From contig NZ_CAMFKW010000031.1 of assembly GCF_945957345.1 (NCBI RefSeq), forward strand, positions 1-64,000: DNA of 64,000 nt, given 5' to 3'. The notes beneath the pieces were generated by a model. It was not told the DNA's origin. It made no database searches and saw only the letters and a program-made list of their open reading frames with translations. The DNA comes from an uncultured Allobosea sp. (lineage in GTDB: Bacteria; Pseudomonadota; Alphaproteobacteria; Rhizobiales; Beijerinckiaceae). Each line of letters starts with the position of its first letter. Within the stretch, counting starts at the first letter, position 1. Below, piece by piece: positions 1 through 6,742 of the stretch. The translations under genes and the position numbers were made by a program.

Positions 1-1245
1 GCGCCGGCACAAACGCAGGCGCTCCACTGGATGGTTTTCTCACCGCCGTGCACAGAGATTGATGGGAAGCCAAGAGCTTACATTATTGACGCGCTTCGAC
101 ACCCGGCAGAAGTGAAGCTTTTAAGAAAATTATATCAAGATGCTTTCTTTTTGGTGGGTGTCGTTTGCGATCCAGATGTAAGGGAAGCTAGGTTAATCAA
201 CGAGCTTTACGAATTTTCGGAAAGAGGTCAGACAGCCACAAAAGACGCTGTAGTCTCTTTCATGGAGAGGGACGCTGATGCACCCGAGAAACACGGGCAG
301 CACGTTCTTGACACATTTCATGAGGCTGATTTTTTCGTAGATAATTCTGAGAACTCTTCTGGAGGAGCTCAGAATACACATATGAACGAATCTTTGAGGA
401 GGTTTGTGGATTTAATTATATCTGATCGTGTTATTCGTCCCAGCGTTTCTGAGACTGCAATGTATCACGCACATGCGGCAAAACTTCAGAGCGCCTGTCT
501 TTCTCGTCAAGTCGGCGCTGCACTTATTGACGATGGTGGCAATATTATCGCCGCCGGAACAAATGAGGTCCCTAAAGCTGGGGGTGGGGTCTATGGCGAA
601 GTTGACGATCTGTCCGGCGATGATGAGCGGTGTGTGTTTAGGGCAAGCAAATATTGCAGTAACAATAGAGAGCAAAATGATATTATAACCGATCTTTTTG
701 ATAAGTTTCCATCCATGCTGGATGGGAAGACGAGGGAAGACGCATTCGCTGCGGTTCGAAGCACTAAAATCGGTGGTCTCATCGAGTTTAGTCGAGCGGT
801 TCACGCTGAGATGGATGCTATTATATCTGCTGGGCGTATTGGGGTTTCGACTGTAGGTTCTCGGCTCTATGTTAGTACGTTTCCGTGCCATTATTGTGCG
901 CGACACATAGTAACGGCTGGTGTTTTTGAGGTTCATTATATCGAGCCATATCCTAAAAGCCGCGCGTTGGCCCTTCATTCAGATTCCATAACTGTTGATC
1001 GTAAGGAGTATGAGGATATAAATCAGAAGTCTAACGAGAAAAAAATTGGAAAAAGGAAGGTTTTATTTACTCCATTTGTTGGAGTTTCGCCCCGAATGTA
1101 TGCGGTAATGTTTCTGAAGGATCGCGATTATAAAAATAAACTTACGGGAGAATATTTCCTTGGCAAGCCGGACTGGGGTGGTCAGGCCGAGGTTTTTCAG
1201 GTACACTACTCAGAGTTGGAAGAACAATTGGCGGCGGTCGAGTAA
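1..1245 (+). CDS. Anti-phage dCTP/dCMP deaminase (AvcD/DCD type), 5' end outside window
   Basis: The frame is open to base 1 and the residues before the first ATG (31) read on without a break, so the start lies upstream and the N-terminal P-loop part of the family is missing from view. Counted from ATG 31, residues 1-110 match the end of the nucleotide-kinase-like half (IIDALRHPAEVKLL). Residues 140-310 are a zinc cytidine/deoxycytidylate deaminase domain with HAE at 258-260 and PCHYC at 285-289 (Cys286 and Cys289). An insert with extra cysteines (201, 209) may bind a second zinc. Proteins with this architecture defend against phage by deaminating dCTP/dCMP and draining the pool during infection; that role is known for the family and inferred here. 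The gene is much more AT-rich than the rest of the window, a sign of transfer. It overlaps the next ORF by one base. Confidence 0.85.
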   Translation, partial: APAQTQALHWMVFSPPCTEIDGKPRAYIIDALRHPAEVKLLRKLYQDAFFLVGVVCDPDVREARLINELYEFSERGQTATKDAVVSFMERDADAPEKHGQHVLDTFHEADFFVDNSENSSGGAQNTHMNESLRRFVDLIISDRVIRPSVSETAMYHAHAAKLQSACLSRQVGAALIDDGGNIIAAGTNEVPKAGGGVYGEVDDLSGDDERCVFRASKYCSNNREQNDIITDLFDKFPSMLDGKTREDAFAAVRSTKIGGLIEFSRAVHAEMDAIISAGRIGVSTVGSRLYVSTFPCHYCARHIVTAGVFEVHYIEPYPKSRALALHSDSITVDRKEYEDINQKSNEKKIGKRKVLFTPFVGVSPRMYAVMFLKDRDYKNKLTGEYFLGKPDWGGQAEVFQVHYSELEEQLAAVE

Positions 1246-1757
1246 TGGGGCGAGAATCTATTGGTATAGTAGATTTTTCTACTACATTTAACGACCGAGA
1301 TCTTGATTCTGCTGAAGCTTTGCCTCAGCAGCTTTCGTTGTTCGACTGCTTTCCGCAGAAGGTTGTGACTTTTATGTCGATGCATGAAATGCATGGATCG
1401 ACTTTTTTTCGTGTTCTCGACCAGGCTGATCGACCAATTATTATCGATATTCGTGGTTATCCTTTTTTTGATATGGGCGGTGTGAGGCGAGATATAGTAT
1501 CGTCTTATTTTGCCAGAAATAATTATCCGTATAAACATGCTCCGATTAGCATGATTAGAGGAAATGATAGTAGGGATAGGTGGAATATGAGAAGTAAGGT
1601 TGTAGATATATTTAAGGATATGGATAGATTTTTTGATATCGAAAGTAAATTTGCTTTGATGCTGGTTGATAATTTTGAAGATGCGCTCATGATGATCAGT
1701 TATGCAAAAAGTATAGACTCAATTTCTAGGGATTATCGATTTTCTGTTGTGCGTTAA
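1245..1757 (+). CDS. Unknown protein coupled to the deaminase; DUF488-like fold suspected
   Basis: A 170-residue ORF whose ATG shares a base with the TAA of the deaminase gene (TAATG), so the two are almost certainly translationally coupled. I do not recognise the protein with confidence. By eye, residues 39-100 follow the opening of the DUF488/rhodanese-like fold: a strand (VVTFMSM), a helix (FFRVLDQ), a strand with IIIDIRGYP, a helix and then YPYKHAPIS, where DUF488 proteins have L-D-V-R-x-x-P and later Y-x-H. The second half is rich in hydrophobic residues and Asp, with no signal peptide or membrane segment. Codon use is AT-rich like the deaminase and unlike everything downstream, so both probably arrived together. 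Its role as an accessory or regulator of the defence enzyme is inferred from context only. Confidence 0.7.
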   Translation: MGRESIGIVDFSTTFNDRDLDSAEALPQQLSLFDCFPQKVVTFMSMHEMHGSTFFRVLDQADRPIIIDIRGYPFFDMGGVRRDIVSSYFARNNYPYKHAPISMIRGNDSRDRWNMRSKVVDIFKDMDRFFDIESKFALMLVDNFEDALMMISYAKSIDSISRDYRFSVVR

Positions 1758-5926: not shown

Positions 5927-6742
5927 TCAGAGTTCGCCGATCCATTCCGCCACGGTCGCGGTGAAGGCGTCCGGCCGCGAGATCGGGAAGAGATGTCCGC
6001 CGGTTTCCATGATCGCGCGGCGGCAGCCGGGCAGGGCGGCGGCGAGCGCCTCCTGGTGGTAGACGGGTACGACCATGTCGTCGCGCGTACCGAGGATCAG
6101 CACCGGCATCATCAGCGAGTCGATATCGGCCGTGCCATCGAAGGCGAGCAGGGCGTCGAGGCGCTCGCGGGCGATCGTCCGGGCATGCTCGCTCACCGGC
6201 GCGGCCTCGATCGCGGCGTCGTAGATGTGCCAGTTGGCTTCGATCCAGCGCGGCTGGTAGCCGCTGAGCACCGAGGTCGCGGCATAGGCATGGGGGTCGC
6301 AGCCGAGGATGGCGCGCCGCGCACCGAAGACGGCGTTGAGATAGCGGCCGGATTTCAGCCAACTCGCGCTCAGGATCAGGCCGTCGAGCCGGCCGGGCGC
6401 GAGTTTGGCGATCGCCTGCGCGATACAGCCGCCGGTCGAGTGGCCGAGCACGACAGCCCGTGAGACGCCGGCCGCGTCGAGCACCGCGAGGCTGTCCTGC
6501 GCCAGCGTTTCGATGGTGCAGGGCGCTTCGCCGCGCGTGCTGGCGCCGATGCCGCGCTGGTCGAAGCGGATGACCTCGAAGGAGCGCGAGAGCGTCGCGG
6601 CGATGTCGCTCCAGAAGGCGGCGCTGCCGCTCAGCCCGCTGACGAGCAGCAGCGGCTGGCCGTGCCCTTCCTTGAAGGCGTGCAGCGTGGCGCCGTCCGG
6701 CGTCTCGATCTTGAAATCGACGATGTCAGTAGTAGCCGTCAT
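5927..6742 (-). CDS. Alpha/beta-fold hydrolase
   Basis: 271 residues with the full alpha/beta hydrolase layout: oxyanion-loop region LLLVSGLSGS, FDQRGIGAST, nucleophile elbow GHSTGG (Ser102), acid in LGTRDDMVVP (about Asp222) and histidine in ETGGHLFP (about His249). The form resembles enol-lactonases (PcaD) and aminoacrylate hydrolase (RutD), small cytoplasmic ester or amide hydrolases. It sits next to the GntR regulator and the importer/amidohydrolase operon, which suggests a late step in the same catabolism; that link is inference. No signal peptide is present. Confidence 0.85.
   Translation of the reverse strand: MTATTDIVDFKIETPDGATLHAFKEGHGQPLLLVSGLSGSAAFWSDIAATLSRSFEVIRFDQRGIGASTRGEAPCTIETLAQDSLAVLDAAGVSRAVVLGHSTGGCIAQAIAKLAPGRLDGLILSASWLKSGRYLNAVFGARRAILGCDPHAYAATSVLSGYQPRWIEANWHIYDAAIEAAPVSEHARTIARERLDALLAFDGTADIDSLMMPVLILGTRDDMVVPVYHQEALAAALPGCRRAIMETGGHLFPISRPDAFTATVAEWIGEL

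Follow-up and report, generated by a model that had tools for sequence, protein, structure and literature searches.

A DUF488-like partner protein of DCD/AvcD-type anti-phage deaminases with a predicted β-clamp-binding tail

Deaminases of the DCD/AvcD family defend bacteria by nucleotide depletion. Can such an enzyme also work with a protein partner and, if so, what might that partner do? The question is raised by the start of a 64,000-nucleotide stretch of DNA from an uncultured Allobosea sp. (all of which we call the window), where a deaminase gene runs directly into a second reading frame, ORF2 (Table 1). AvcD acts on dC nucleotides as a deaminase, restricts phage replication and is kept in check by a labile RNA (PMC10511110; PMC9455884), and the known AvcD/DCD systems consist of the enzyme alone or of the enzyme with this RNA, AvcI, upstream (PMC10511110, PMC9455884). 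The window gene belongs to the same enzyme family (PADLOC dCTPase) and has the same zinc motifs, but here, and in one DCD clade, a protein partner is coupled downstream. A limited literature search found no published description of a protein partner for DCD, or of DUF488, the domain family that ORF2 resembles, in an anti-phage context.

Table 1. Mapped features of the window and of short ORFs at three related loci
Feature	Position	Strand	Basis
End of a repeat (probably an insertion sequence) that forms the contig end and cuts the deaminase gene short	1..54	+	Identical at nine other contig ends
5'-truncated anti-phage dCTP deaminase (DCD/AvcD family), without P-loop N-terminus	56..1245	+	PADLOC dCTPase match; alignment to full-length relatives
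HAEMDA zinc motif of deaminase	802..819	+	
PCHYC zinc motif of deaminase	883..897	+	
ORF2, 170 aa, dedicated partner of one DCD clade; disordered N-terminus and DUF488-like core	1245..1757	+	
IGIV, first N-terminal short motif of ORF2 (LRLV-type in relatives)	1260..1271	+	Column conservation
QLSLF, canonical β-clamp-binding motif (predicted), residues 29-33	1329..1343	+	Column conservation; consensus match
Folded Rossmann-like core, residues 39-170, remote DUF488 relative	1359..1754	+	AF2 pLDDT mostly 80-93; hhalign
IIIDIRGYP, DxR motif common to DUF488	1437..1463	+	R invariant in 21 relatives
Short ORF with QLSLKL over DCD stop	L045 around 6449-6650		
Short ORF with QLSLKL over DCD stop	L053:3131-3325		
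Short ORF with QFDLNL over DCD stop	L052:1308-1517	minus	

The deaminase frame is open from the first base of the window to a TAA stop at 1243–1245. Its identity had been proposed in a preliminary description on the strength of HAE and PCxxC motifs, and this is borne out: both motifs are present, and the PADLOC dCTPase profile (PDLC02373) matches with an E value of 1.9e-135 (451 bits). The same description had also credited the protein with the kinase-like half of the family, and there the P-loop part does not hold up. The match covers profile positions 237–544 of 630, leaving out the P-loop part, and in alignments to full-length relatives homology begins only at about base 58, equivalent to residue 156 of the Pseudosulfitobacter enzyme. 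The N-terminal P-loop (kinase-like) region is thus missing from the window copy and present in relatives.

What removed it is visible at the contig start. Base 1 of the window is the first base of its contig (C31), and nine further contig ends of the genome carry an identical copy of the first 54–55 bases, with unrelated sequence after each. Copies of the repeat are also present on unrelated plasmids from Rhizobium and from Roseomonas; the Roseomonas copy has an IS5-family transposase immediately upstream, and nothing is annotated at the Rhizobium copy. This repeat is probably the end of an insertion sequence. Hence the deaminase is incomplete, truncated at its 5' end by the repeat, and the locus is not the intact two-gene defence islet for which it had been taken. 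We considered a simple insertion that left the N-terminal half on another contig, and rejected it: neither the family profile nor the N-terminal 161 residues of a relative, used as queries against the assembly, detected that half. The missing part may sit on a small contig absent from the assembly. With its deaminase truncated, the window copy probably does not work as a system, and we think it likely that the locus is a decayed remnant without present function, the deaminase having lost its promoter and N-terminus to the end of a mobile element. The repeat at bases 1–54 and the lack of an N-terminal half elsewhere in the assembly favor this reading, whereas both frames 3' of the break are intact, and the assembly breaks at the repeat with its far side unseen. 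A remnant here is compatible with our best explanation for the family as a whole. The deaminase and ORF2 have GC contents of 45% and 37%, versus 67% for the remaining window; this shared AT-richness, noted previously, is a composition as in acquired DNA.

ORF2 begins with an ATG at 1245, the A being the last base of the deaminase stop (TAATG), in keeping with the translational coupling first proposed. A deaminase-profile scan of one genome per species plus IMG/VR yielded 15 close intact loci, and an ORF2 relative lies directly 3' at the deaminase stop in all 15. One further close locus (L035) has no ORF2; its deaminase breaks off after residue 351. The same gene order is found on a Pseudosulfitobacter plasmid and on a Rhizobium plasmid, with overlaps of 8 and 4 bp, respectively. 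ORF2 profiles were also run on three surveys, of 385 genomes from the class, 398 from the order and 399 from the phylum, with E values below 1e-10 counted as strong. Outside this genome, 12 of 12 strong places were directly 3' of a DCD gene on the same strand. The weaker matches examined (E 1e-8 to 1e-3) have no adjoining deaminase and are, judged from their sequences, DUF488 proteins; three of them that were run against Pfam all score as DUF488. Strong homologues of ORF2 thus directly follow AvcD-type genes in both samples, so that the condition named beforehand as refuting the pairing, homologues mostly apart from deaminases, was checked and did not refute it. On a tree of 48 deaminases, the 28 with ORF2 or an ORF2–TIR fusion form one clade (SH-aLRT 96), and presence of ORF2 needs a single change of state; because the rows were partly picked for having ORF2, the tree shows coherence, not frequency. 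Judged by these sequence comparisons, the partnership between ORF2 and the deaminase is well supported. In the class survey, where genomes were chosen regardless of ORF2, DCD was present in 18 genomes; ORF2 was recognized by profile in 5 of these and by position in 2 more, and the others had short ORFs or nothing recognizable. A search of IMG/VR with patterns of ORF2 itself found none. Two ORF2 proteins, from Paracoccus (L033) and Sulfitobacter (L034), are nearly identical, indicating recent horizontal transfer. Separately, a ThiF adenylyltransferase/multiubiquitin-domain pair adjoins each of two plasmid loci (L009 and L028), and an ImmA/IrrE peptidase is encoded close by, a setting like that of a defence island.

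What kind of protein is ORF2? AF2 models of two family members agree on a disordered tail of ∼30–37 residues followed by a Rossmann-like core. No family in Pfam, NCBIfam, PHROGs or PADLOC is matched at its cut-off, which leaves the protein undescribed, as had been suspected; NCBIfam, PHROGs and PADLOC gave no shared hit. The window ORF2 has no hit to PF04343 (DUF488), and its best-scoring relative reaches 15.9 bits, against a gathering cut-off of 22.2. The likeness to DUF488 originally seen in the segment IIIDIRGYP nonetheless stands. An hhalign comparison of the ORF2 profile with the DUF488 alignment scored 50.6 (P 1.4e-8), whereas controls reached at most 21.0 with shuffled columns and 14.9 when reversed. 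ORF2 and DUF488 have in common the DxR motif and the surrounding β-α-β segment, and true DUF488 members are the next relatives found by the ORF2 profile. ORF2 differs in falling below the Pfam cut-off, in its added disordered N-terminal tail with two short motifs, in being tied to deaminases, and in having lost the CxxCHR-type C-terminal motif, which is present in DUF488 and absent from an alignment of 21 ORF2 relatives. In that alignment, the R of DxR is the only invariant core residue. The profile match, the common DxR and the lost CxxCHR together mark the core as a remote relative of DUF488 that is probably without catalytic activity. Foldseek searches of solved structures with the two AF2 models gave weak matches (TM below 0.5), among them Rossmann-like folds and dual-specificity phosphatases. 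Viral SLOG proteins and DUF488 proteins matched no better, and none of these structural matches is counted as evidence here. No sequence relative of ORF2 was found in the PDB, and none of significance for DUF488 (best E 0.73).

The tail is otherwise variable, yet two short motifs are kept, LRLV close to the start of the protein and QLSLF immediately ahead of the core. In the model of the window protein, QLSLF falls where the low-confidence (disordered) tail ends. QL[S/D]LF is the canonical β-clamp-binding motif, of which revised forms are Q-phi-x-[LM]-[FL] and Q-phi-x-[LM]-x-[FL] (PMC13254535). Strict QL[SD]LF was found in 9 of 29 ORF2 tails (shuffled tails: mean 0.007, maximum 2), and the published consensus in 16 of 29 (shuffled: mean 0.76, maximum 5; background: 27 of 917 ORFs). 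The other 13 tails miss the consensus (QGMLF, QSNLF, QLSFNL, QPLLF and others), several solely at position two; the motif may thus be less strict than the consensus, or may have a different binding partner. At several DCD genes without ORF2 there is instead an ORF of 60–76 aa over the stop codon, with no ORF2 core and with a six-residue clamp form, QLSLKL (L045, L053) or QFDLNL (L052). Of the hints at the clamp as target, the strongest is that two kinds of partner carry the docking motif in two forms.

Some further small proteins were encountered. On a Rhodococcus plasmid, an 86-aa ORF 37 nt after a DCD gene (L092:3187-3447) has the segments ALRVV and TQLPLL, which recall the tail motifs of ORF2. 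Directly after other DCD genes (L054, L057, L062 and L090), one of them in Vibrio nigripulchritudo, lies another micro-protein family with an ELDSWPxWMK-like motif. An ordinary DUF488 protein (L120; G1091 C2:373482-373763) ends in RQASLF, a clamp-consensus C-terminus; DUF488 may thus be linked to the clamp beyond the deaminase system.

In at least three loci, from Rhizobium gallicum (L026) and genomes G380 (L060) and G778 (L098), ORF2 runs on into a TIR domain. The R. gallicum fusion matches TIR_2 with an E value of 4.1e-18; the deaminase at this locus is annotated as two overlapping frames, so this copy may be broken. Such fusions suggest signalling from the ORF2 domain to an effector. The three ORF2 homologues share the TIR_2 domain with TIR-domain defence effectors but differ from those known in that TIR is fused to a DUF488-like domain, behind a deaminase. 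No published account of such an arrangement was found in a limited literature search. The clamp motif, the TIR fusions and the loss of CxxCHR are additions of the present analysis, absent from the preliminary description.

Taking these data together, we propose, with a probability of roughly 0.5, that ORF2 serves as the second, dedicated subunit in a DCD/AvcD variant made up of two genes; its QLSLF tail would dock the deaminase at the replication clamp, and the protein would sense or relay infection. ORF2 would replace or add to AvcI-type RNA control of the deaminase. Its tail is predicted to dock on the β sliding clamp, and the replisome would then hold the deaminase in place or gate it. On takeover or loading of clamps by a phage, the partner might switch on dCTP/dCMP deamination or concentrate it at forks; where TIR is fused, this sensing domain would trigger the TIR effector as well. 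Counting against the proposal are the 13 tails outside the clamp consensus, the weak match of the ORF2 core to solved structures and the lack of the P-loop half in the window deaminase. As a small accessory protein predicted to engage the hydrophobic pocket of the clamp, ORF2 resembles the clamp-targeting toxins SocB of Caulobacter and RipA of Streptococcus (PMC12795458). ORF2 has no demonstrated sequence relation to these toxins and is paired with a nucleotide-depleting enzyme, and for ORF2 clamp binding is predicted. More tentatively, these proteins may define a clamp-docked branch of anti-phage deaminases, in which a DUF488-derived sensor tethers the enzyme to the clamp, TIR fusion links replisome sensing to a second effector, and micro-proteins with the six-residue motif do likewise for DCDs that lack ORF2. 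We also looked for a structured RNA like AvcI. Upstream of 14 relatives, there was no consistent excess of folding (z from –2.3 to +1.6); the window has no upstream sequence.

Other explanations of ORF2 were weighed against this one. That it is a chance neighbor or a housekeeping gene is already refuted by the association counts, with a DCD gene adjoining ORF2 in every close intact locus and at every strong survey place outside this genome. Its absence from 60 relatives searched also speaks against this reading, nothing was found in its favor, and we give it almost no weight. It also seems improbable that ORF2 works alongside the deaminase as a further effector, an enzyme-like protein of the DUF488 kind with nucleotides or nucleic acid as its target. 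In favor of this are its homology to DUF488, including the retained DxR, and Pfam's 'active DUF488-N3' subclade, which indicates that part of the family is thought to be enzymatic; but the absence of CxxCHR among relatives and a core in which R alone is invariant are as expected of a non-catalytic binding domain.

The main rival to clamp docking is a plain protein inhibitor. ORF2 would here be an antitoxin that takes the place of AvcI RNA and keeps the deaminase inactive until phage stops the expression of host genes, and the QLSLF-like segment would bind the deaminase or some other host protein instead of the clamp. Strict coupling and co-inheritance fit this account, as do the control of known AvcD by a labile RNA antitoxin (PMC10511110) and the lack of unusual RNA structure upstream of these DCDs. 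Yet the pentapeptide is an exact clamp consensus in nearly a third of the proteins (9/29), ORF2 lies downstream of the toxin gene, and fusion to TIR is untypical of an antitoxin. We therefore regard the inhibitor as unlikely, though less so than a second effector, and retain the clamp-docked subunit as the preferred reading.

A strictly co-inherited partner with a canonical clamp tag makes the regulation and aiming of DCD/AvcD enzymes testable outside the AvcI RNA branch. Catalogues of defence systems would gain a second gene and a TIR-fused subtype that are now missed. Tethering to the replisome, if true, would explain how a soluble nucleotide-depleting enzyme acts where phage DNA is copied.
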